Assembly (NCBI GenBank): GCA_902763685.1
Contig: CACWTF010000022.1
Location: 1-32,025, forward strand
DNA length: 32,025 nucleotides
DNA from: a methanogenic archaeon
GTDB lineage: Archaea; Thermoplasmatota; Thermoplasmata; Methanomassiliicoccales; Methanomethylophilaceae
Direction: 5' to 3'
The position numbers were made by a program, and so were the translations under genes. Shown here piece by piece: positions 5,316 through 24,829 of the stretch (positions are counted from its first letter, which is position 1; every line of letters starts with the position of its first letter). The notes under the pieces are model-generated. The model saw only the letters and a program-made list of their open reading frames with translations, was not told the DNA's origin and searched no databases.

Positions 5316-6299
5316 ATGTTCTGTCCTGAATGCGGAAGGGAGGTTCCTGAGGGTGCGGATTTCTGCCCCGGGTGCGGCCGTTACGTCAATTCGGGATACA
5401 CCTACGTCGAGAACTGGGAGCAGCCATCCTCGACCACCACCAGTTATGATTTTTCCGAGCCCGCCTCCAGGCCGAAACGTGCGGGTTCGGCCAAGTTCAC
5501 CACAGCGATAATCGTGGTACTCGCTGTAGCTGCGATCGTCCTCCTCCCCACGCTCATGGAGGACAACCGCGGGGAGCTGTTCGGGAAGAGCTTCACCGAA
5601 TCATATTCCGGCGAAACCTCCGGATACACCGTGGTATCCTGCCAATGGGAATACCTCGACGGTCAGTTCAGCTGTTCCTACGGTGTAAAGGATTCCGACC
5701 GCACCGCACATGCTTCCGATCCCGTCTCGTCGAGGAATGTAATCATCTGGGCCGACGCCGTGGATTTCGTCGAGGTCACCGATACCGTGACGGCCATGGA
5801 GGATACCCTTGCAAAACTGTACAAGCAGGTGTTCGGCACGGATCCCGAAGCGGATCAGAGATATGCGGATTTCATCCTGGCATTCGTGCAGGGATCGGTC
5901 ACCTACATGACCGATCAGAACCAGCACGGCTACTCCGAATACTACGCCTATCCTGCTGAGACCCTCTACACCAAGAGGGGCGACTGCGAGGATACCGCGA
6001 TACTGTGTGCGGCCCTCTACAAAGCCGCAGGGTTCACATCGGCACTCCTGACCCTTCCCGGCCATATGATGGTGGGTGTGGTGCTCTCCTCGTACACCGT
6101 ACCGTCCTACGACAGTTCCGGCGAGATCCTCAGTCAGACCATCGGAGGGAAGACCTTCTATGCGGGAGAGACCACGCTCGACAGTGCCCAGCCCGTCGGT
6201 GTCAGCTACGGTTCCAATGACGGGTGGATGTACTCCAGCTACCTCAACTCGGGAGTCGTGGGTCAGGGAGCGTATACTTTCTACGAGGTGCCCGCATGA
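5316..6299 (+). CDS. Zinc-ribbon, membrane-anchored transglutaminase-like protein
   Basis: The 327-residue protein starts with a cytoplasmic zinc ribbon (CPEC at 3-6 and CPGC at 17-20), then a Ser/Thr-rich linker, one membrane helix at about 62-81 (TTAIIVVLAVAAIVLLPTL) and an external domain. That domain holds a transglutaminase-like papain fold: Cys224 in GDCEDTAIL, His250 in LPGHMMVG and an acidic third residue, probably Glu285 in AGETT. Members of the superfamily are peptidases, amidases or cross-linking enzymes, so the reaction is not determined. The end of the gene overlaps the next start (ATGA at 6296-6299), and the next gene encodes a second copy of the same catalytic domain. The zinc ribbon on the inner face could connect to cytoplasmic partners. 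Target is unknown. Confidence 0.8.
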   Translation: MFCPECGREVPEGADFCPGCGRYVNSGYTYVENWEQPSSTTTSYDFSEPASRPKRAGSAKFTTAIIVVLAVAAIVLLPTLMEDNRGELFGKSFTESYSGETSGYTVVSCQWEYLDGQFSCSYGVKDSDRTAHASDPVSSRNVIIWADAVDFVEVTDTVTAMEDTLAKLYKQVFGTDPEADQRYADFILAFVQGSVTYMTDQNQHGYSEYYAYPAETLYTKRGDCEDTAILCAALYKAAGFTSALLTLPGHMMVGVVLSSYTVPSYDSSGEILSQTIGGKTFYAGETTLDSAQPVGVSYGSNDGWMYSSYLNSGVVGQGAYTFYEVPA

Positions 6300-7795
6300 A
6301 GGCGATCGTTGCCACGGCTCTCACCTTCGCTCTAATAATCGGCATGACCGTGTTCTTCATGAGCATCGACGAATTCGACCAATCGTCCGCCGAACCCCCG
6401 CTGGGTCTTTCCAGCACCAAGATCACCCTCGAGGAAGGTGACAGTTCCGACCTCACGGTCTGGAGTCTTCCGTCGGGTACGACATACGATAACATCTCCT
6501 GGGAGTCCGATACCGAGGATGTAGCTACCGTGAGTTACGGTACCGTTACCGCCGTGAGTCCCGGGACCGCCATGATTACGGCGAGTGTCTACAGCGGCGG
6601 TGTCGAGTACACGGATACATGTCTCGTCACTGTTACCGATACCGCTGTCGTGAGTGCTCTGACAGTCTACAATCCCTATTCGGAGAAATACGACAGTGCG
6701 GTCCTTTCCGGCAAGGGTTTCCTCGGCGAAGAATCAACTGGGGGCGTGCTTTCCCTCGGATTCAACCGCGGCGGTTACATCATAATCTCCGTAGCGGGGA
6801 GCACATACAGCTGGGGAGAGAGCCTCAACTCCGTGGGCGTGGAGGTCCGCAACTATTCCCGTATTGTCATGAGGCTCACTTCAGTTTCCGGTGTTTATGC
6901 GACCTACAATCCTTCGTCATCCGTTTCCCAATCCACATTCGTCACGACCAGCGGTATCACATACAACAGTGTCGCCCAATCCCCTTCGCTGTACCTGAAA
7001 GGTCTGGATTACGGCACATACAATGTCCAGTTCACCGTTTACAAGGACGGGTTTCTCAGCAGTACTGAGATAGTGTCGGTGACAGGTACGTTCACCTATT
7101 CCGAAGGAGATGGAAGATACGATACCTCTTCAGAATTCACCAGGTTCTATGCCTGGAACAGCGATATCACCGGAAGTAGCGAGCTGTGCGGCATCAAGGT
7201 GACCTACAGCTATGCGGACTATTGGAACGCAGTTCTTCAGAGCAAGGAAGAGATGATCCACTACAGCAACGGCATAGCAAGTGCCAGATACGAATCCGAA
7301 TGCGTGGATTATGTCAATACGGGGACCGCGGTGAAGAGTCTCGAAGCCGCTCTCAGGGAGGAATTCGAATCCACCTATTCTTCTTATACAGACAAAAGCG
7401 AGATGTACGCGCAGTTCATATTCACGTTCCTTCAGATCCGCTTCTTCTACGAGAACGACTACACCCAATACTACGACTGCTACAGCTCCCATTCCTCGGG
7501 AACGGATGTGTGGGCATATCCCGAGATGACCATCTATTCGGGCATGGGGGACTGCGAGGATACAGCCGCTTTGCTATCCTCACTGTTCAAAGCGGCCGGT
7601 TACGATACTGCTCTCATCATCCTGCCCAGCCACATGATGAGTGCGTTGGTCCTTTCGGATTATTCCTACACCGCATCGTTCGAATACGGGAACAAGAAAT
7701 ACTACTTCTGCGAGAGTACCGCCGATTCGGGAGTGAGGATCGGTTATTGCTCCTCCACCTACCAATACGGCGAGTTCTCCTACTATTTCGTGTGA
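6296..7795 (+). CDS. Secreted Ig-like (Big_2) and transglutaminase-like protein
   Basis: I start this 499-residue protein at ATG 6296, which overlaps the previous stop as ATGA; upstream in-frame codons belong to the previous gene. Residues 3-23 form a signal or anchor helix (AIVATALTFALIIGMTVFFM). A Big_2-type Ig domain follows at about 37-113 (LSSTKITLEEGDSSDLTVW, DVATVSYGTVTAVSPGTAMI). The middle region of about 280 residues is beta-rich and Tyr/Ser-rich and is not recognised. The C-terminal 100 residues repeat the transglutaminase-like core of the upstream gene: Cys420 in GDCEDTAAL, His446 in LPSHMMSAL and Glu473 in FCESTAD. The pair is thus a tandem duplication with different front ends. 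Both probably act on surface proteins outside the membrane. The gene ends one base from the convergent adenosyltransferase gene. Confidence 0.8.
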   Translation: MKAIVATALTFALIIGMTVFFMSIDEFDQSSAEPPLGLSSTKITLEEGDSSDLTVWSLPSGTTYDNISWESDTEDVATVSYGTVTAVSPGTAMITASVYSGGVEYTDTCLVTVTDTAVVSALTVYNPYSEKYDSAVLSGKGFLGEESTGGVLSLGFNRGGYIIISVAGSTYSWGESLNSVGVEVRNYSRIVMRLTSVSGVYATYNPSSSVSQSTFVTTSGITYNSVAQSPSLYLKGLDYGTYNVQFTVYKDGFLSSTEIVSVTGTFTYSEGDGRYDTSSEFTRFYAWNSDITGSSELCGIKVTYSYADYWNAVLQSKEEMIHYSNGIASARYESECVDYVNTGTAVKSLEAALREEFESTYSSYTDKSEMYAQFIFTFLQIRFFYENDYTQYYDCYSSHSSGTDVWAYPEMTIYSGMGDCEDTAALLSSLFKAAGYDTALIILPSHMMSALVLSDYSYTASFEYGNKKYYFCESTADSGVRIGYCSSTYQYGEFSYYFV

Positions 7796-11977: not shown

Positions 11978-14302
11978 ATGGTCGTTCCGGATGCCAAGAC
12001 CTTCATCGCGTTCGCTGCCACCGCGGCCGTCCTCATCGCGGGGTGCGGGCTCGTCCTTTTCCAGCCCGGAGACGATCTTTCCGATTCCATTCTCATGATC
12101 GGACACGAGGGCATCTACGAGAACGGCACCTACTCCAGTGTGGTCATCTCCCCCGAGGTGGGCGACGGCCATGTCGTCCTGAGGAACATCACCATCCTGG
12201 GCTCCCTCACAGTCAACGGAGGGGGAAGCGGCACGGTGGTCCTGGAAGGGTGCGATAACCGGGGGACCACCACGGTGGACAAGACGGGCGGTCAGCCGGT
12301 CCGTATCCTCCTTAAAGGTACGGAACTGTCATCATTGGATGCCGCCTCCGATCTGATCCTGGAAGGCGATTCCGGATCCTCCTTCGGTACGGTGAGCCTG
12401 AAGGATTCCAAGGCCGTCGTCCAGGGATCCGAGACCTCGATCGCCAGCATCGGCATGGGCGACGGTACCGAATTGGATGTCAGGGAAGGCACCGTCAGCG
12501 GAGTGAGCGTACCCGCCGAATGTTCCGCCACCGTGAGGACAGGTGCCGGGAGCACCCTCCCCAAGATAGATGTGGCAGGAGCAGTCACCGTCGACGGGGA
12601 GGACACGGGGATCGGTTCCGTCGTGATGAACGACGGTGCATCGCTCCTCGTACGCAAGGGTGCCGTCTCCGAGATCGACATCCCCCTAGAATGTTCCGCC
12701 ACACTGCAGGCCGATGCCAGGGCCGCCATAGGTAACGTTTCCGTTTCGGGAAAGGTCAGCGTCGAGGGCTCTGATACGGTCGTCTCGAAGGCCGTTCTCA
12801 AGGATAACGCATCCGTCTCGGTCAGTGCTGGCACAGTGGATAGTCTGGAAGTACCCAAGGGCATCTCCGTTACCGTCACGACCGAATCCGGAGGATTAGT
12901 GAGGGCTGCCGATGTGAACGGAACCCTGAACCTCGGCGGGGCGGAGACCAGGATCGACAGCGTCACCATGGGGGACGGATCCTCCATGGATGTGGGCCGC
13001 GGAGAGGTAGCTTTCGTGAGCCTGCCCGCGGAAAGTTCCGCAGTCCTCAGGACAGCTTCCCAGGGTGCCATCCTCAGAGCCGACATCTCCGGCAAAGCGA
13101 CGATCGACGGTAATGACACGAGGATCGAATCCGTCGGTCTCGGCGACAGCTCGACCCTGCTCGTGGCCGGAGGCACCGTCTCCGAGGTCATCGTCCCTTC
13201 AGAGTGCTCCGCGGTTCTGCGTGCGGAAGCGGCAGGTTCCGTCGACACCCTTTCCGTTTCAGGTGCAGTGAGCATCGAAGGTGCCCAGACCGCCATCGCA
13301 CGTGCCGTACTCAACGACGGTTCCTCCGTCTCCGTTCTTGCAGGTTCCGTCGCGGAACTGAGCGTCTCCGCAGGCAGCACCGTCTCCGTCCGTACCGATG
13401 CAGACGGTATCGTCAAGAATGCGGAGGTGAACGGTGCACTGACCGTCGACGGCACCGAAACGAGGCTCGGTACCGTTGTGATGAACGATGGATCGGCCAT
13501 CGACATCCTCGGCGGGGAGGTCGGTTCCCTGTGCGTCGCATCCGGCGGTTCCGTCACATTCAAAGGACGGATCTGCGAAGTCTCCGTCGCAGGCAGCATC
13601 ACTGTCGACGGCGAGGATACCGGTATCGGCAGCGTTCTCATGGGTGACGGAGCCTCGCTCTATGTCAGGGAAGGAAACATCACCGATGTCATCATCCCCG
13701 CCGAATGTTCGGCAAGCGTCAGGACTGAGGCATGTGGTGTCATAGACAATGCATCGGTCTCCGGTGGTATCATCTTAGAAGGTCAGGATACCGCAGTCTC
13801 CGGTTTCACCCTCAGCGACGGTTCCTCCGTATCGGTGGGCTCCTGCACCCTCTCAGGCCTGGTGATTCCCGAGGATACCTCCGTATCGGTCTCGACCTTC
13901 GACGAGGGGATCGTCCGTAACATCGATGTCCGCGGGACCCTGAACGTTACCGGTTCCGACACCAGGATCGAGAACGTCAACCTGGAGGACGGTTCTGCCG
14001 TCGACGTCAAGGCTGGAACAGTGGATTCCGTGAACGTTGCCAAGGATTCCAGCATCACCCTCGACAAATCGGATTCGGCTGTGATCAGCAAAGCGGTCGT
14101 GGGGGACAACGTCTCCATCGATGCGTCCGACGATACCGACCTCTCCTCCGTCTACATCAGTATGTCTGAGGATGCCGAAGGCGATGTCGTCAGGATCAAG
14201 GACAGGGATGTCTCCGTCGGCGGCCTTTCCCCCGGTTCATGGTGGGACTGGTGGAAATGGTGGTGGGGATGGGCCTTCCTGCACGGTCAGTCGTTTTATT
14301 GA
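11978..14302 (+). CDS. Secreted 57-residue-repeat solenoid surface protein
   Basis: The 774-residue protein is not a named family that I recognise. It begins with an anchor helix (about 8-28) containing IAGC at 20-23, a canonical lipobox, so it may be a lipoprotein. A cap domain follows (about 40-144; IYENGTYSSVVISPEVG, then LEGCDNRGTTTV). Ten units then run from residue 145 to 710, each of 57 residues except unit 7 (53). The core of each unit is a VDGxDTxIxSVxMxDGSSxxV-like pattern that predicts a parallel beta-solenoid. Units 2-4, 5-7 and 8-10 form a three-unit higher-order repeat. A C-cap (711-755) and a tryptophan-rich tail (WWDWWKWWWGWAF, 755-767) close the protein. Both caps recur in the next gene. 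It is predicted to be leaderless. A role in adhesion or as a cell-surface spacer is inference. Confidence 0.85.
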   Translation: MVVPDAKTFIAFAATAAVLIAGCGLVLFQPGDDLSDSILMIGHEGIYENGTYSSVVISPEVGDGHVVLRNITILGSLTVNGGGSGTVVLEGCDNRGTTTVDKTGGQPVRILLKGTELSSLDAASDLILEGDSGSSFGTVSLKDSKAVVQGSETSIASIGMGDGTELDVREGTVSGVSVPAECSATVRTGAGSTLPKIDVAGAVTVDGEDTGIGSVVMNDGASLLVRKGAVSEIDIPLECSATLQADARAAIGNVSVSGKVSVEGSDTVVSKAVLKDNASVSVSAGTVDSLEVPKGISVTVTTESGGLVRAADVNGTLNLGGAETRIDSVTMGDGSSMDVGRGEVAFVSLPAESSAVLRTASQGAILRADISGKATIDGNDTRIESVGLGDSSTLLVAGGTVSEVIVPSECSAVLRAEAAGSVDTLSVSGAVSIEGAQTAIARAVLNDGSSVSVLAGSVAELSVSAGSTVSVRTDADGIVKNAEVNGALTVDGTETRLGTVVMNDGSAIDILGGEVGSLCVASGGSVTFKGRICEVSVAGSITVDGEDTGIGSVLMGDGASLYVREGNITDVIIPAECSASVRTEACGVIDNASVSGGIILEGQDTAVSGFTLSDGSSVSVGSCTLSGLVIPEDTSVSVSTFDEGIVRNIDVRGTLNVTGSDTRIENVNLEDGSAVDVKAGTVDSVNVAKDSSITLDKSDSAVISKAVVGDNVSIDASDDTDLSSVYISMSEDAEGDVVRIKDRDVSVGGLSPGSWWDWWKWWWGWAFLHGQSFY
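12410..14107 (+). repeat. Ten tandem 171-bp coding repeats with a three-unit super-period
   Basis: Each unit encodes 57 residues; unit 7 is 12 bases shorter. Units start at 12410, 12581, 12752, 12923, 13094, 13265, 13436, 13595, 13766 and 13937. Units 2, 5 and 8 share DTGIGS/DTRIES and ECSA. Units 3, 6 and 9 share SVSV and a TVSVRT-like strand. Units 4, 7 and 10 share ETR/DTR with MDV, IDI or VDV. This gives super-repeats 12581-13093, 13094-13594 and 13595-14107. Codons differ widely between similar units, so the copies are old. Confidence 0.85.
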
Positions 14303-14431: not shown

Positions 14432-17400
14432 ATGGACAGTAAAATGCTGATTGCCATCGCCGCGACCGTTATCGTAGTCGGTGCGGGCTGCGGTGTATAT
14501 CTCATGATGGGAGGGGAGGAGGCCAAGGAGTCCATCCTTTCCATCACCGAGCCCGGCACGTACGAGAACGGCACCTACAGCAAGGTGATAATCTCCGCTG
14601 CCGTCGGTAACGAAGATGTACTGCTTAAGAACATCAAGATTCTGAAATCCCTGATAATCAGGGGCGGAGGAAGCCATTCGGTGACCCTTGAAGGGTGTAC
14701 CAATGATGGAACGACCACCGTAGAGAAGGAAGGTGGAGAGGATGTCCGCATCAATCTGGTCAACACCACCCTCTCTAACGTTCAGGTCACTTCCAATGTG
14801 ATTCTCGAGGCCGATGCCGATTCAGGCTTCAGCAATGTGAACCTCGACGGGGCCAACGCAACTGTCCAGGGTAACGAGACCAACATCGATAAGGTGACGA
14901 TGGGCAACGACACCAAGCTGGAGGTCAATGAGGGGAATGTCAAGGACGTCGACGTCCCTGCTCAGACAAATGCTACTGTCCAGACCGCCGCCGATGGAAA
15001 CATCCAGAACGCCAACGTCGCGGGTAATCTCACCGTTGACGGTTCCGAAACCACCGTAGGAAACGTAAACATGCAGAATGACTCCGCGCTCGATGTCCAG
15101 AACGGAACCGTCAGCAACGTGAACATCCCTTCGGGCTCCAACGTAGAGATAGGTAAGGCCTCTGACGGAACCATCACCGCCGCAACCGTAGGGGACGATG
15201 TTTCAATCGCGCCCACCGAAGGAACCGATTTGGGTGCCGTCAATTTCGAGATGGCTGATGATGCAACACAGGGTTCCGTGACGATCGGGGATTCCGAGCA
15301 GCACGTCCACAAGCTTGAGCCCATCGGAGCGGATTGGAACACCTTCGATAAGGAGTCCATGACAGTTTCGGTGATTTTACGTTGCACCATAGATGATTGC
15401 CCCGACGGCCAGGAATTCACAGTTACCAAAACATACGACGTTTCCAGAGAGGTAATAGAGGAGGCTACCTGTACCGAGGACGGTCGTGCATGTTATTTCA
15501 CGTCCATACCTGGTGACAACGGGCTCCCAGAAACCATCCCTGCTCTCGGACACGATCTTATACACCACGAAGCAAAAGAGATGACCTGTGACGAAGACGG
15601 TTGGAACGAGTACGATACTTGTTCCAGGTGCGACTATTCCACCAAGGTCGTAATCCCCAAGGAGCACGACCTGACCCAGCATCCTGCAAAGGCTCCTACC
15701 TGTACCGAGGTGGGATGGGAGGCTTACGAGGATTGTTCCAAATGCGACTACACAACCTACCAGGAGATCCCTGCTCTCGGTCACAACTATGGGACCCACA
15801 CTGTTCTTTGGGATACCCATGATGTGGATGCCAATACCGTTGAAGTGAAGGATGAGTGTACCAGATGCGATGAGTCTGAGGAGGGACATTCCAGGGTATG
15901 GACTGCTACCGTTCAGAAAGAAGTGACCGATCCCACCTGTACCGCGCCTGGGCGCATACGCTACTATGTTCCCAATACCGGTGACAACGACCGTTCCGAA
16001 ACCTTGGACGCACTGGGTCACCACCTTATCCACCATGATGCCAAGGCTCCCACCTGCACTGATTCAGGCTGGAACGAATATGACACCTGTTCCAGATGCG
16101 ATTATTCAACATTCAACGAGATCCCTGCCACCAGCCATCAATGGGTCGATGTCCCTGCAAAGGAACCTACGATGGAAGAGGAGGGATGGACCGCCCACCG
16201 CGAGTGCAGCGTCTGTCATGAAACAGAAGGAAAGCAGACTATCCCGCCCCTTGCAGGTTTCACCGTCACGGTGTATGGCGGAAAGGTGGCTAAGGTCGGG
16301 CAGCCCCTTGAAACATCCGTGATCCGTGTAGGTTACGGAACCGAGGTTCATGTGGAGTTTGACGGCGACGATTGTGCCTACTGGACCAGCAACCGTTCGG
16401 ATTATGCCGCTGGTAACAGTTTCAATGCTCTTGTATACTGCGATCTGTACTTCACTCCCCATCCCGCACAGGACAAGCAATACGGCAGTTGGGTCAAGAC
16501 CGACGCAACTTGCGATACGGACGGTCTGTGGTATCGCGAATCCACTGACGGTCAGTGGAAGGAGTGGATCACCATCCCCGCTCACGGGCACCATCTCGTC
16601 GGCGATCTCACTGTGACCCAACAGCCGACCTGCGATTCCGAAGGTTCTGGATACCGTGTCTGCGACATTTGTCAGGAGCAGGTAACAGAATCAATCCCCG
16701 CCACCGAGCACCACTATGTGCAGGGCAATATCGTATCCCAGCCCGTCGGTACCGCTCCCGGAAAGATCACCCAGGTCTGTACCGAGTGCCACAAAGAGAA
16801 ACTGGTCGACTATTACATGCCGGTCTATCCCGAGATCCAGGACGGATACACCGTATATCTCAAGTGGGCGACAACCAACGACAGTATGAACTCGTCCGTA
16901 CACAGGGAAGAGACCCATACCGTATGGACCATTGACGACAACGGTACCTCCAGACAGGCGTACCTTTACGGAGTCAAGCGCTACTATGATTCCGGATCCT
17001 ATACCAACAGCGAGAGGGACGTTGCCGCATGGCTCCTTTGGGTTGACTACGGCCAGCACAGTCCCGTCTACATTGCCAGGGTGAACCAGGCTACTGATGC
17101 GGCATACGACACCTGGGGGGTTGCCGGCTACGTCGACAGCAAGACAGGTTTCATCGATTTCATCGACGGAATGCATCTTGGAACAGACAACGGAAGTTCC
17201 GCATCGCAGCTCTATTCACTCTACCGCTCCTGGACCGAACAGCTGAACAACGGCATGTCCGGACTCTACGAGACCGGGGACAGTTTCGTATTCAGGGGAA
17301 AGAACGTCACCCCTTACTTCAACGATGACGGGGCATTCTGGGTAGACGAGAACAACTGCTGTCTTTACAGGGCATTCGGTTCCGGTTACTACGCCAGCAT

Positions 17401-20188
17401 CTTGCAGGTGAAATCCATCGGACAGGAAACCCATCTTCCCTTCGAGCATGACTACGTGCCGATATTCTACAAGGACGTAAGCTTGAAATCCGCAGTCGCC
17501 AGATTCTTCAACAATATCCCCACGCTGAGCAGTGTCTCCTACCATCACGTGGAACTCCTCAACGGCGATTACGGATCCGGCGACAGGGCGGCCCCTGGCA
17601 AGGAGTTCTTCGACATTGAGAGCCTCGATTACGCGTTCACCCTTGCGACACCCTATTCGTGGATATCCTCCAGGAACCTTGAGGTCCAGGGATTGGACGG
17701 AACCTGGTATCCCGTCGAGACCGGCGACTACACCTTCGACGGCAAGAGCTATCGCGGATTGAAACTGGACGGACTCGTGACGGTGCCCCATTATGATTAC
17801 AACACTTTGGGTTACCTTTACGAGTATATGGTGCAGTGCCACAGCGACAACTTCGTGATGCCCGGAGCTCCTGAATTCAAGGGCATCTTCCTGAGATTCG
17901 CCGATGAGAACTACCCCGCTTCTAATATCACCGTTGCCAACGGAACCCTCGAGGATTACTCGGATGACGGTAACGGGGTCTACAGGATCGACGGAAACAC
18001 CACAATCTACCTGAGTCCCGATGAGATCTACGGAAAGCGCTTCGATTACTGGGAGGTCACCGTAGACGGCGTCAAGACCCAGTTGGAGGATAACCATTAC
18101 CAGGTCGTTCCCGGGAAGACCATCGCGATCGCCGCGGTTTACCGTGAATTGGCCGAGTATCATATCACCCTTTCAGCCGGTCCGGGCGGACTTGTGAATA
18201 CTTCGAGTATCACGTGTCTGGAGGAAGGAGAGTTCTCTGCCCTTGCGATCCCCGAACCCGGGTACGTATTCAGTGGGTGGTGGGATGTCACCAATGAGTA
18301 TACTTACAACTTCAACAGGGAACTGAGGGGCCACGCATATGGGGATATGTCCTTAATGGCACGTTTCGAGCCGGTCGATTTCGAGGCCGATAATCCCTAT
18401 ATGATGACCAACGTGACGATCACCAACGGTTTCCTTCAGGTGGACGATAACGGTACCCCCCTCACCTCGGTTTATGTTTCAGAGCCCAAGGGGCAGAGGG
18501 TGTACATCCTGGAGAACCCCCGCCTCGACGAGATATACAGATGGGATTGTGCCTATTCCGCTGAACTGGCCAACCCTACGAAATATACCATGTCTCCGGA
18601 CTATGCTGAGGAAGACGGACGTATAAATGTGAAGTATGCAGGAAAACTCACGACCGTGGTCGGGGTATTCACTGCCGATCTGAGCTTCTACGAACTTACT
18701 TATGATCTCAACGGAGCGGAGGGGAACGTAGAAGGAGGAACCTATGCCAACGACGAGGAGGTCTACCTCAGCGGTGCCCCCGAAAGGGAAGGTTACGACT
18801 TCAACGGATGGAATACCCAGGCCGATGGAAACGGAACACCGTATGAAGCACAGCAGAGGATCTTCCTGGATGGCAATCTCGTACTGTACGCACAGTGGTC
18901 ACCCAAGACCAGCACCGTGACCGTCTCGATGCCCTACGCTATCAATTACCAATTCTACAACATCACGCAGCAGAAGATCAATGTGATCTGCGGACAGCCT
19001 GCCCTCATCCCCGCAGGTATCGTTACGGATCTCAAGGGATTCACCATCACCGGGTGGAGTTACAACTACAATGCTGAGCTCGTGACCGTTGCAGCTGACG
19101 GTACCGGTACCGTGCCCTACGGAGTTACCAGCATAGTCGCGGTATGTTCGTATGTCACCTACACCCTGCACTTCGACAAGAACAATGCGAATGCCACCGG
19201 ATCGATGGATGACAGGACCTTCACCGTAAAGGACCTGAGCAGCGGCCAGTACCTTTCCCTGAGGACACCGTTCGGATACACCCTTGCCGGATACGATATC
19301 AGGGAATGGAAGTACGGTGGCACCACCGTCTCCGATAACGACGGAACAAGGCTCCTCCTGAAGTCATTCGTTCTCGATAGTCCTGCCGAAGCCCAGACCT
19401 TCGAGTTGGATGCGCAGTGGACGGAGATCACGCACACCCTGTATTACAAGAACAACTTCCAATATGCTGGATTCACTTCGGTGTACCCGCTCAATTTCTC
19501 CATCAGCGAGACGGCTTATCTGATGACGCAGAGCAATGTTATCTTCGGTTCAGCCACCTATTATCTCATCGGATGGACCGTGAACAGCGATGGTACAGGA
19601 ATCATGTTCAAGGGTGCCACTCCCGGTTCCGAACTGGTCCCGTACTGTACTGATTGCAAGATTAACGTCTACGCACAGTGGGCGGTCAAGGCCTACACGG
19701 TAGAGTTCTACGACGATTTCGAGTCGCAGGCCTCTGTAGCCACCCAGAATCTGCAATACGGTGCAGGTCCCACCGCCCTCATCAGCGTCGATTCGATGGT
19801 GAAGGAAGGCTGTACCTTCGTCGGATGGGATACCGACCCTTCGGCGAACAACGTGGTCTATCATGACGGCGACACCGTTTCCGATCTGGTAACAGACGGA
19901 TCGGCGTTCAAGCTGTACGCGGTATGGATCCACAGTTCCTACACCGTGCACTTCGATAAGAATGCAGAGGATGCGACCGGCGAGATGAGCGACCAGACCT
20001 TCAATGCCAATGAGGCAAAGGGTCTCACCCCCAATGCTTTCGCCAGGGAAGGTTATGAGTTCGACCGTTGGTGCACCACTGAGTACAACCAGGGAGAATT
20101 CTTCGACGATGGCCAGACGGTGAAGAACCTCACAACCGAGGAATCCATCACCCTGTATGCCATCTGGAAGCAGGCGCCCGGCTCTTGA
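14432..20188 (+). CDS. Giant adhesin-like surface protein (solenoid, CxxC repeats, InlB B-repeats)
   Basis: This 1,918-residue protein starts at ATG 14432 with an anchor helix (5-26, containing GAGCG). Residues 40-290 form a solenoid homologous to the preceding protein but with only two 57-residue units (142-198 and 199-255) and the same N- and C-caps. It is rich in N-x-T/S sequons. Residues about 344-790 hold repeated cysteine modules of the form ATCTEDG, CSRCDYST, IPALGHD, six or more copies. These are a bacterial gut-adhesin repeat type and resemble small zinc- or disulfide-stabilised domains. The middle (about 800-1250) is unrecognised and aromatic-rich. From about 1250 to the end come InlB B-repeat (Flg_new, Listeria-Bacteroides) domains with the GWxT, REGYxFxGW and LYAxW signatures. 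No C-terminal anchor is seen. It probably mediates contact with other cells or host material. Confidence 0.85.
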   Translation: MDSKMLIAIAATVIVVGAGCGVYLMMGGEEAKESILSITEPGTYENGTYSKVIISAAVGNEDVLLKNIKILKSLIIRGGGSHSVTLEGCTNDGTTTVEKEGGEDVRINLVNTTLSNVQVTSNVILEADADSGFSNVNLDGANATVQGNETNIDKVTMGNDTKLEVNEGNVKDVDVPAQTNATVQTAADGNIQNANVAGNLTVDGSETTVGNVNMQNDSALDVQNGTVSNVNIPSGSNVEIGKASDGTITAATVGDDVSIAPTEGTDLGAVNFEMADDATQGSVTIGDSEQHVHKLEPIGADWNTFDKESMTVSVILRCTIDDCPDGQEFTVTKTYDVSREVIEEATCTEDGRACYFTSIPGDNGLPETIPALGHDLIHHEAKEMTCDEDGWNEYDTCSRCDYSTKVVIPKEHDLTQHPAKAPTCTEVGWEAYEDCSKCDYTTYQEIPALGHNYGTHTVLWDTHDVDANTVEVKDECTRCDESEEGHSRVWTATVQKEVTDPTCTAPGRIRYYVPNTGDNDRSETLDALGHHLIHHDAKAPTCTDSGWNEYDTCSRCDYSTFNEIPATSHQWVDVPAKEPTMEEEGWTAHRECSVCHETEGKQTIPPLAGFTVTVYGGKVAKVGQPLETSVIRVGYGTEVHVEFDGDDCAYWTSNRSDYAAGNSFNALVYCDLYFTPHPAQDKQYGSWVKTDATCDTDGLWYRESTDGQWKEWITIPAHGHHLVGDLTVTQQPTCDSEGSGYRVCDICQEQVTESIPATEHHYVQGNIVSQPVGTAPGKITQVCTECHKEKLVDYYMPVYPEIQDGYTVYLKWATTNDSMNSSVHREETHTVWTIDDNGTSRQAYLYGVKRYYDSGSYTNSERDVAAWLLWVDYGQHSPVYIARVNQATDAAYDTWGVAGYVDSKTGFIDFIDGMHLGTDNGSSASQLYSLYRSWTEQLNNGMSGLYETGDSFVFRGKNVTPYFNDDGAFWVDENNCCLYRAFGSGYYASILQVKSIGQETHLPFEHDYVPIFYKDVSLKSAVARFFNNIPTLSSVSYHHVELLNGDYGSGDRAAPGKEFFDIESLDYAFTLATPYSWISSRNLEVQGLDGTWYPVETGDYTFDGKSYRGLKLDGLVTVPHYDYNTLGYLYEYMVQCHSDNFVMPGAPEFKGIFLRFADENYPASNITVANGTLEDYSDDGNGVYRIDGNTTIYLSPDEIYGKRFDYWEVTVDGVKTQLEDNHYQVVPGKTIAIAAVYRELAEYHITLSAGPGGLVNTSSITCLEEGEFSALAIPEPGYVFSGWWDVTNEYTYNFNRELRGHAYGDMSLMARFEPVDFEADNPYMMTNVTITNGFLQVDDNGTPLTSVYVSEPKGQRVYILENPRLDEIYRWDCAYSAELANPTKYTMSPDYAEEDGRINVKYAGKLTTVVGVFTADLSFYELTYDLNGAEGNVEGGTYANDEEVYLSGAPEREGYDFNGWNTQADGNGTPYEAQQRIFLDGNLVLYAQWSPKTSTVTVSMPYAINYQFYNITQQKINVICGQPALIPAGIVTDLKGFTITGWSYNYNAELVTVAADGTGTVPYGVTSIVAVCSYVTYTLHFDKNNANATGSMDDRTFTVKDLSSGQYLSLRTPFGYTLAGYDIREWKYGGTTVSDNDGTRLLLKSFVLDSPAEAQTFELDAQWTEITHTLYYKNNFQYAGFTSVYPLNFSISETAYLMTQSNVIFGSATYYLIGWTVNSDGTGIMFKGATPGSELVPYCTDCKINVYAQWAVKAYTVEFYDDFESQASVATQNLQYGAGPTALISVDSMVKEGCTFVGWDTDPSANNVVYHDGDTVSDLVTDGSAFKLYAVWIHSSYTVHFDKNAEDATGEMSDQTFNANEAKGLTPNAFAREGYEFDRWCTTEYNQGEFFDDGQTVKNLTTEESITLYAIWKQAPGS
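15460..16800 (+). repeat. Degenerate repeats encoding CxxC/IPALGH modules
   Basis: Within the giant adhesin, modules of about 40-60 residues recur with the order APTCTE, GWxxYxxCSRCDYST, xxIPALGH. Examples begin near 15467, 15583, 15697, 15934, 16048, 16162, 16507 and 16627. DNA identity is modest; protein pattern is clear. Confidence 0.7.
18680..20170 (+). repeat. InlB B-repeat (Flg_new) domains
   Basis: At least five to six copies of a roughly 70-90-residue beta-grasp repeat. They are recognised by YxVxFDKN or LTYDLNG, a REGYxFxGW or similar turn, and a closing LYAQW, LYAVW or LYAIW. Copies begin near 18690, 19155, 19434, 19690 and 19935; one divergent copy starts near 18900. Confidence 0.75.
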
Positions 20189-20348: not shown

Positions 20349-20414
20349 ATGGCAAAAGCGATCGCAGTCAAGGGGTCCGGATTCGGCCCCCGTTCCGCAG
20401 AGAGGGTGTTCTGA
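20349..20414 (+). CDS. Possible 21-residue leader peptide upstream of GMP synthase
   Basis: The frame encodes MAKAIAVKGSGFGPRSAERV plus a final F and stops in a TGATG overlap with the GMP synthase ATG at 20414. Its own ATG sits at the predicted transcription start, so it would be read from a leaderless message, and GAGGGTG near its end doubles as the ribosome-binding site for the next gene. Length, leaderless position and overlap together suggest a translated leader. No family is recognised and it may simply be 5' UTR. Confidence 0.4.
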   Translation: MAKAIAVKGSGFGPRSAERVF

Positions 20415-21376
20415 TGGTAGGATTCTTCGACGAACAGGAGTTCATAGACGAGGCAGTCGAGCTCATCCAATCCTCCATTCCCGCCCCCGCCAAGGCTGTA
20501 ATCGCCTGTTCCGGCGGCGTCGACAGCATGGTGACCGCAACCCTCGCCAGCAAGGCCATCGGCGACCGTTTATTGGCGGTATACGTGGACAACGGGCTCA
20601 TGAGGAAGGGCGAGACCGAGGAGGTCGAGGCCATGATGAGGCACATGGGCATCAACTACAAGGTCGCCAGCGTCGCCGACGAGTACTTCGAGGCCCTCAA
20701 AGGCGTGGAGGATCCCGAGCAGAAGAGGAAGATCATCGGCGAGAAGTTCGTGAGGGTCTTCGAGAGGTACGCCCGCGAGTTCGGTGCCACCTGTCTCCTC
20801 CAGGGGACCATCGCCCCCGATTGGATAGAATCCGGCGACGGCACCCGTGATACCATCAAATCCCATCACAACGTGGGCGGACTCCCCAAGGACATGGGAA
20901 TGACCCTCTGCGAGCCCTTGAGGGATCTCTACAAGGACGAGGTCAGGCAGGTCGCCCGCGCCCTCGGTGTGGAGGCTTCCGAGAGGCAGCCTTTCCCCGG
21001 TCCCGCCCTCGCGGTGAGATGTCTCGGAGAGGTCACCCCCGAGAAGGTGCAGATAGTAAGGGAAGCGTGCTTCATCGTCGAGGACGAGATAAGGAAGGCA
21101 GCTGACGCCGGAGAATCCGTCCGCCCCTGGCAGTACTTCGCAGTCCTCGTACCCAGCAAGTCCGTCGGGGTACAGGGGGACAGGAGAGCCTACGGCTACA
21201 CCATCGCCGTGCGTGCCGTCGATTCCGTCGACGGTATGACCGCTACCTTCTCCAGGCTCACCATGGACGTTCTGAACAGGATCTCTGTAAGGATAACGGA
21301 CTCCATGAAGAGTCAGGTCAACCGCGTGGTATACGATATCACCAGCAAGCCCCCGGCCACCATCGAGTGGGAGTGA
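20414..21376 (+). CDS. guaAB: GMP synthase, ATP-pyrophosphatase subunit (archaeal split form)
   Basis: The 320-residue subunit adenylates XMP and accepts ammonia to make GMP. The N-type pyrophosphatase loop SGGVDS is at 33-38. Then come VDNGLMRKGE, the DPEQKRKIIGEKF segment, LLQGTIAPDWIES, IKSHHNVGGLP, the substrate loop RQPFPGPALAVRCLGE and the C-terminal dimerisation end KPPATIEWE. As usual in archaea the glutaminase is a separate gene, which follows at 21379. A second homologous ATPase subunit of different ancestry lies at 23613-24593 on the other strand. The start is ATG 20414, overlapping the leader ORF stop. Confidence 0.93.
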   Translation: MVGFFDEQEFIDEAVELIQSSIPAPAKAVIACSGGVDSMVTATLASKAIGDRLLAVYVDNGLMRKGETEEVEAMMRHMGINYKVASVADEYFEALKGVEDPEQKRKIIGEKFVRVFERYAREFGATCLLQGTIAPDWIESGDGTRDTIKSHHNVGGLPKDMGMTLCEPLRDLYKDEVRQVARALGVEASERQPFPGPALAVRCLGEVTPEKVQIVREACFIVEDEIRKAADAGESVRPWQYFAVLVPSKSVGVQGDRRAYGYTIAVRAVDSVDGMTATFSRLTMDVLNRISVRITDSMKSQVNRVVYDITSKPPATIEWE

Positions 21377-23612: not shown

Positions 23613-24593
23613 TCACTCCCACTCGATGGTGGCGCAGGGCTTGGGGGAGAGGTCGTAGAGGACGCGGTTCACGCCTTTGACCTCGGCAAGGATCCTCTTG
23701 GTGATCTTGTTGAGAAGGGGCCAGGGGATCTCCTCCACGGTAGCGGTCATGGCATCGGTGGTGTTGACCGCCCTGATGATGACGGGCCAGTCCCAGAGCC
23801 TCTTTCCGTCCTTCACACCGGTGGAGCGGTAGTCGGGGACGATGGTGAAGTACTGCCATACCTTTCCGGCGAGACCGGCGTTGGCGAACTCCTCCCTGAG
23901 GATGGCATCGGATTCCCTGACGGCCTCGAGCCTGTCGCGGGTGATGGCACCGGTGCAGCGGACTCCGAGTCCGGGTCCGGGGAAGGGCTGCCTGAAGACC
24001 ATGCTGTCAGGGAGACCGAGTGCCTTCCCGACCACGCGGACCTCGTCCTTGAACAGCAGCTTCACGGGCTCTACGAGTTCGAGTCCGAACTTCTCGGGGA
24101 GACCGCCGACGTTGTGGTGGGCTTTCACACCGTGGGATTCGAGGATGTCGGGGTAGATGGTTCCCTGACCGAGGAACTTGACTCCGTCGATCTTCTTGGC
24201 TTCCTCCTCGAAGACGTTGATGAATTCCGCACCGATGATCTTCCTCTTCTGCTCGGGGTCGGAGACTCCAGCGAGTTTGTCGAGGAAACGGTCGGTGGCG
24301 TCGATGTAGACCAGGTTGGCCTTCATCTGGTTGCGGAAGACGTCGATGACCTGCTCGGCCTCGCCTTTGCGGAGGAGACCGTGGTTGACGTGCACGCAGG
24401 TGAGGTTCTGGCCGATGGCCTTGATGAGGAGGGCCGCGGTCACGGAGGAGTCGACTCCGCCGGAGAGGGCGAGGAGCACCTTGCCGTTTCCGATCTGTTT
24501 CTGGAGGGCTGCTACCTGTTCTTTGATGAATGCATCAGCCAGCTCGGGGGTGGTGATGCGGACCATGGATTCGGGGCGTACGTTGCTGTCCAT
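23613..24593 (-). CDS. guaA: Second GMP synthase ATP-pyrophosphatase subunit, bacterial-type
   Basis: The 326-residue protein corresponds to the C-terminal two thirds of bacterial GuaA without the amidotransferase half. The P-loop is LALSGGVDSS (41-50). Family segments follow in order: VHVNHGLLRKGEAEQVIDVF, DRFLDKLAGVSDPEQKRKIIG, FLGQGTIYPDILES, AHHNVGGLPEKFGLELVEP, RQPFPGPGLGVRC and the end KPCATIEWE. Wording such as IVPDYRSTGVKDGKRLWDWP and VIIRAVNTTDAMTA matches Firmicute-type GuaA as I remember it, and differs clearly from the upstream archaeal copy. The start ATG 24593 is preceded by GAGGT. The deletion-like change ESHGVKAHHN, where most have a KSHHN motif, is odd. It could use GuaAA in trans or have another substrate. 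Confidence 0.85.
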   Translation of the reverse strand: MDSNVRPESMVRITTPELADAFIKEQVAALQKQIGNGKVLLALSGGVDSSVTAALLIKAIGQNLTCVHVNHGLLRKGEAEQVIDVFRNQMKANLVYIDATDRFLDKLAGVSDPEQKRKIIGAEFINVFEEEAKKIDGVKFLGQGTIYPDILESHGVKAHHNVGGLPEKFGLELVEPVKLLFKDEVRVVGKALGLPDSMVFRQPFPGPGLGVRCTGAITRDRLEAVRESDAILREEFANAGLAGKVWQYFTIVPDYRSTGVKDGKRLWDWPVIIRAVNTTDAMTATVEEIPWPLLNKITKRILAEVKGVNRVLYDLSPKPCATIEWE

Positions 24594-24829
24594 AATGAGA
24601 CCTCTTGGTTCTGAGCCCTGGATGTTCTTAACCCTTTTTAGGTTCTTTGTCAGCAATCCGACATCTTGTTTTCTCGAATGTCCATATGATTTCAAAAGGC
24701 TGTTAACCGTGAATGCAGGTCCTTTCCGGGCAATCCGTATTCCCGGTCTGCGGGGCCTTCCGAGACGGTTGGGCAGATTCCCTGCAGATGGATGTATAAA
24801 CAATGGTAAACATTAGCGCGTGTATTTAA
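24594..24829. promoter_or_regulatory. Divergent intergenic region
   Basis: No gene is visible in these 236 bp. For the plus-strand membrane gene, TGTATAAAC (24794-24802) lies about 30 bp before ATG 24830. For the minus-strand GuaA gene the ribosome-binding GAGGT lies directly upstream of ATG 24593. The middle (24640-24780) shows nothing I can assign. Confidence 0.4.

Follow-up and report, generated by a model that had tools for sequence, protein, structure and literature searches.

The locus and its genes

The window, that is, the whole stretch of 32,025 nucleotides analysed here, comes from a methanogenic archaeon of the gut/rumen type, a member of the Methanomethylophilaceae. It carries a gene for a protein of 774 residues, p774, followed by a gene for an adhesin-like protein. 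Both genes lie on the forward strand and comprise the following features.

11978-14302, + strand, stop included: p774, predicted headless solenoid surface protein of 774 aa (open reading frame, GC3 0.73, self-offset 57)
11993-12064, + strand: predicted signal anchor or transmembrane helix of p774, residues ~6-29 (AlphaFold2 helix 6-22, low confidence)
12089-12415, + strand: N-cap, residues 38-146, the conserved module VGDG...GGGS...C...GTTTV.K..G...RI (alignment, AlphaFold2)
14114-14224, + strand: C-cap, residues 713-749; relatives have a homologous C-cap (alignment; blastp with the neighbour)
14225-14299, + strand: private Trp-rich C-terminal tail, residues 750-774 (AlphaFold2 helix 756-772, low confidence)
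14432-20188, + strand: adhesin-like protein downstream of p774, 1918 aa from the ATG at 14432 (blastp; Flg_new 9.9e-26)
14432-15316, + strand: stalk module of the adjacent gene, shared with p774 (AlphaFold2)

The GC content of p774 by codon position is of the coding type and matches that of the neighbouring genes. An antisense open reading frame of 449 aa at 12292-13641 was taken as a shadow of the repeat frame. About 30 bases upstream of the p774 start lies a TATA-like box, as judged by eye.

The N-terminal helix of p774 has a Kyte-Doolittle mean of 1.78 and aligns with the equivalent helices of relatives. Since a Lys precedes the helix and its exit is acidic, an N-in/C-out orientation is expected. 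We rejected a lipobox (LIAGC) as a general feature, as the Cys is missing in some relatives and more hydrophobic residues follow it. The N-cap has 28 invariant columns across six archaeal copies and is common to Clostridia too. In the AlphaFold2 model, its pLDDT is mostly 84-97 and its predicted strands are of the same kind as those of the solenoid. N-cap and C-cap both recur in relatives, which supports the original prediction that the caps are separate modules.

The product of the adjacent gene begins with the same order of anchor, N-cap, two units and C-cap as p774, and continues into CxxC repeats and Flg_new/InlB repeats. The two proteins align with 224 bits and 44% identity (blastp). Because the adjacent gene holds the same module, p774 is placed among the adhesin-like surface proteins; as no adhesive domain is recognised in p774, it is an adhesin by association. 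The long middle and distal region of the neighbour has homologues in two further genomes (G012 and G110).

Searches of Pfam, NCBIfam and PHROGs gave no significant family for p774 and no Flg_new (PF09479), adhesive or stalk Pfam domain, and Pfam searches with module alignments gave chance-level matches only. A search of PDB sequences returned nothing for p774, and the best value for the module profile (0.014) was chance-like. The claim that p774 belongs to no named family thus holds for Pfam, NCBIfam, PHROGs and PDB sequences, but it had missed the adjacent adhesin-like gene, which carries the module. No relatives of p774 were found in viral contigs, phages or plasmids, and a phage origin is therefore not supported.

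Elsewhere in the window, 20414-21376 (+) and 23613-24803 (-) both match the GMP synthase C-terminal domain and flank an AMP phosphorylase-like gene. A candidate second surface protein, with a Big_2 domain and a weak transglutaminase-like match, is encoded at 6224-7795, and the gene preceding it (5316-6299) encodes a zinc ribbon together with a domain resembling transglutaminase.

Repeat units, coils and predicted fold

Ungapped BLOSUM62 self-comparison of p774 gave 57 residues as the top offset (span 148-661, score 679), well ahead of the next-best offsets of 171, 114 and 338. Ten units fill residues 147-712. The single reading frame with tandem 57-residue units, as originally described, is thus borne out; nine of the ten have the full length, and unit 7, with 53 residues, does not.

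12416-12586, + strand: unit 1, residues 147-203; 42% identical to unit 4
12587-12757, + strand: unit 2, track A; shares 51-60% identity with units 5 and 8 (60% with unit 8)
12758-12928, + strand: unit 3, track B; shares 47-49% identity with units 6 and 9
12929-13099, + strand: unit 4, in the weak track C; shares 30-33% identity with units 7 and 10 and 42% with unit 1
13100-13270, + strand: unit 5, track A
13271-13441, + strand: unit 6, track B
13442-13600, + strand: unit 7, track C, 53 aa; 4-residue deletion in the third coil (17 instead of 21)
13601-13771, + strand: unit 8, track A; 60% identical to unit 2
13772-13942, + strand: unit 9, track B
13943-14113, + strand: unit 10, the final one; most similar to the neighbouring gene's last unit (42%)

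After removal of unit-specific similarity, p774 shows a significant three-unit period in both protein and DNA (permutation p = 0.0008 each); the same test gave no significance for repeats every 2, 4 or 5 units. Protein identity is 51-60% among units 2/5/8 (track A) and 42-49% among units 3/6/9 (track B). Track C (units 4/7/10) is weak, with 30-36% identity against a mean of 33% for non-corresponding pairs, and only U7-U10 and U4-U10 clearly exceed expectation. The one-to-one correspondence proposed for units 2-4, 5-7 and 8-10 therefore stands for tracks A and B, whereas in track C it lies near background. Likewise, the proposed triplication of a trimer survives as an old period-3 duplication with a weak third track. 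Its borders at 2-4/5-7/8-10 are not fixable, as the identity between units 1 and 4 extends the register to unit 1.

The best unit pair is 60% identical in protein and 62% in DNA. This low DNA identity explains why TRF found no DNA tandem repeat in p774, and it makes an assembly collapse or expansion unlikely. Codons match at shared amino acids about as often as chance would give for the codon use of the gene (U2/U8: 12 of 33, expected 14.5). Codons of corresponding units have thus strongly diverged, as was claimed; with codon agreement at chance level and synonymous sites saturated, the duplication must be old. Selection on structure is a plausible reading of these sequences, since hydrophobic columns are kept in all units while synonymous sites are saturated. 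That synonymous sites show no trace of common origin would also suit structural convergence, in which every ninth coil of a superhelix comes to be alike and no duplication is involved. We consider convergence highly unlikely in view of the excess at the DNA level and of track-specific residues at many columns (e.g., LLY/SSS/DDD at column 21 and CCC/IST/SGS at column 36), and we retain duplication as the origin of the period.

The smallest element of the array is not the 57-residue unit but a coil of ~19 residues. The autocorrelation of the V/I/L pattern of p774 peaks at lags of 57, 39 and 18, and lag 18 is prominent in the hydrophobicity profile of the unit (0.52; p = 0.001 over all lags). This suggests that each unit consists of three coils of 18, 18 and 21 residues, with the pattern hydrophobic-x-hydrophobic, gap, hydrophobic-x-x-hydrophobic-x-hydrophobic. 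The layout of p774 is thus a coil, a unit of three coils and a super-unit of three units. Within 12416-14113, a Cys at unit column 36 is found only in units 1, 2, 5 and 8, that is, in track A and unit 1.

AlphaFold2 predicts p774 as one continuous beta-solenoid with a mean pLDDT of 83.7 and a pTM of 0.57, from an input alignment whose extra rows extend no further than the caps and roughly one unit. In this prediction the ten units form some thirty coils of two strands each. With such a pTM, the course of the rod as a whole is uncertain; the coil structure itself is confident. The 18/18/21 strand spacing runs over residues 116-708 of the model and matches the model-free autocorrelation. The first 308 residues of the neighbour are modelled with a pLDDT of 86.2 and a pTM of 0.81, and the parallel beta-coils of the original prediction appear in both models. 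In the predicted structure, p774 has the stacked short parallel coils and the hydrophobic core of a beta-solenoid. Foldseek searches against PDB and viral models returned beta-helices and LRR proteins, none at E ≤ 0.001, and the best viral match (LRR, E 0.007) was judged to be generic solenoid similarity. The matches of the p774 model are mostly beta-helical (Hap, tailspikes, Ag43, tapirin), with some LRR proteins; most are right-handed helices, of which none is significant (best E 0.2).

Relatives and proposed origin of p774

Within the order, the N-cap occurs in 7 of 147 genomes, patchily and always in one family (Methanomethylophilaceae). Among the named records are Candidatus Methanomethylophilaceae and further Thermoplasmata MAGs. 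Between the end of the N-cap and the C-cap, the solenoid measures 80-146 aa in relatives (the value of 80 was taken by eye from the sequence) versus ~598 aa in p774. The long form is confined to one genome; each relative has a single short solenoid, and most of them, including complete long ones, run on into CxxC/InlB repeats. A headless copy of the module, 269 aa long, is present in a MAG from horse faeces. In genome G004, the gene order is MFS, corrinoid protein, URO-D methyltransferase, AMP phosphorylase-like protein and solenoid gene; in the window, p774, its neighbour and a GMP synthase-like gene sit between the URO-D and AMP phosphorylase-like genes.

MAGs of Clostridia/Oscillospiraceae (L018, L019 and L020) encode proteins in which SLH-like domains precede a homologous N-cap and a short solenoid; the SLH assignment was made by reading the sequence and not by profile search. 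In these proteins the solenoid lies ahead of CxxC-type repeats, which L020 shares with the methanogens, and the module can thus also serve as a mid-protein linker. In gut communities, an N-cap common to methanogens and Clostridia points to an exchange across the domains of life, which may have gone in either direction.

Homology of p774 to its neighbour, like the repeat order and the predicted coils, is established computationally. In a tree of N-caps the two are sisters with moderate support (81/89), and the branch of p774 is long (0.91 versus 0.20 for the neighbour); both the moderate support and the long branch count against the history that we favour. According to this history, p774 would have arisen by tandem duplication of the neighbouring adhesin gene. 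The distal CxxC and InlB-type repeats would have been lost, unless p774 never possessed them, and the solenoid would have expanded from two units to ten, with three units copied per event in at least part of this growth.

A long branch, a tail found nowhere else and a TGG-rich gene end could instead mark p774 as a decaying duplicate, a truncated, pseudogene-like adhesin copy with a tail that is the accidental translation of TGG-rich DNA. We regard decay as quite improbable. The 774 codons are free of stops and coding-type in their GC, the hydrophobic columns are kept in 10 of 10 units, the array has grown rather than decayed, and a headless copy also exists in another genome. A recent frameshift was rejected as the cause of the absent distal domain, as the other frames past the Trp-rich stretch, on inspection, are unlike the HVHKLEP continuation of the neighbour. 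The DNA of the tail (14225-14299) is rich in TGG.

A putative stalk and known surface proteins

The C-terminal sequence of p774, WDWWKWWWGWAFLHGQS, is unique, and no convincing relative of the Trp-rich tail was found among 61 genomes. Its aromatic richness contrasts with the solenoid region, which has only 6 aromatic residues in 599 and a net charge of -50. Wimley-White sums for the tail are -11.35 kcal/mol (interface) and -7.01 kcal/mol (octanol), and the confidence of the model is ~63 or lower in this part. The tip is most likely hydrophobic and interface-seeking.

We conclude that p774 is probably not an enzyme but a membrane-anchored stalk or spacer with a sticky tip, derived from a duplicated adhesin stalk. 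We infer its surface location, orientation, rigidity and tip role: the protein would be inserted N-in/C-out and rise from the membrane as a stiff and strongly acidic rod of ~15-18 nm, with its Trp-rich tip in contact with lipid, with a hydrophobic ligand or with a different surface protein. The 32 coils over residues 116-708, at 0.48 nm each, amount to 15.4 nm, to which the caps contribute a few coils more.

The tail might otherwise form a second membrane anchor, with the rod then either spanning the gap from the cell's own membrane to that of a neighbour or a vesicle, or bending back on itself like a staple. The energetics of the tail, which are those of an interfacial or membrane segment, and its predicted helicity agree with this proposal, and 11 adhesin-like proteins of M. 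smithii have anchors at both ends (PMC11532034). We nevertheless find a two-ended tether rather unlikely, as the helix has just 17 residues with Asp, Lys and Gly inside, and the tail is private to this genome and modelled at low confidence. The stricter version, a rigid double-ended tether that runs from the signal anchor to an interface-binding Trp-rich helix and whose nested three-fold rod, amplified from the adhesin stalk, sets the distance from a methanogen lacking an S-layer to another membrane, is a distinctly doubtful proposition.

The stalk reading fits the published picture. No S-layer is seen in M. alvi, which bears fibrils of up to 300 nm, for which the authors speculate on Flg_new adhesin-like proteins (PMC10673518); p774 alone is far too short for such fibrils. 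Archaeal adhesin-like proteins combine a membrane anchor with a beta-helix, and in some of them both ends carry anchors or short hydrophobic helices (PMC11532034). By its sequence, p774 has the N-terminal anchor and repeat rod of this class, its extracellular location being presumed and adhesion putative. A Trp-tipped rod on the surface, if real, would bear on how methanogens lacking an S-layer hold gut partners. p774 is also a natural case of solenoid growth at two levels, with a two-unit relative surviving one gene away. The N-cap has no family model though it is common to gut methanogens and gut Clostridia, and naming it would explain a portion of many unannotated surface proteins; this unnamed N-cap/solenoid family is perhaps a more useful result than p774 itself.

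Adhesins of the beta-helical autotransporter and filamentous kind (Hap, Ag43, EtpA, Fap2), which use stacked parallel coils as adhesive rods, account for many of the top Foldseek matches, but these matches are non-significant and p774 has no autotransporter or two-partner secretion parts. Fibrillar adhesins are defined by a known adhesive domain plus a stalk domain, and p774 has no such Pfam domain. With Periscope Proteins (PMC8201768), p774 shares a tandem-repeat surface stalk. Tandem units that make a stalk, and a solenoid length so variable across relatives, would agree with recombination altering the repeat number between strains and thereby tuning the projection distance. This is very improbable for p774: repeats in that survey exceed 50 residues and are at least 80% identical, far above its best unit pair. 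As number variation is tied to high identity, fast copy-number change is unlikely now.

The Clostridial proteins L018-L020 share the homologous N-cap and the short solenoid before CxxC-type repeats; they differ in their anchor, an SLH-like domain by sequence reading instead of a membrane helix, and in a solenoid of ~124 aa. The right-handed beta-helix adhesin-like proteins of Methanobrevibacter and Methanosphaera (PMC11532034) resemble p774 in their anchor, long beta-helical rod and, sometimes, C-terminal hydrophobic helix. They differ in that p774 has no sequence match to any described family and no detected archaeal Big domains, and in its ~19-residue coil with a regular 18/18/21 and 171-residue order. 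The Flg_new (InlB B-repeat) adhesin-like proteins of the Methanomassiliicoccales (e.g., Methanomethylophilus alvi) belong to the same archaeal order and have an N-terminal membrane anchor, and the neighbour of p774 joins the same N-terminal module to Flg_new repeats. p774 differs from them in having neither Flg_new nor CxxC repeats and in being nearly all solenoid. It is most likely a headless, amplified adhesin-like stalk, and thus a new form of an already known type of cell-surface protein.
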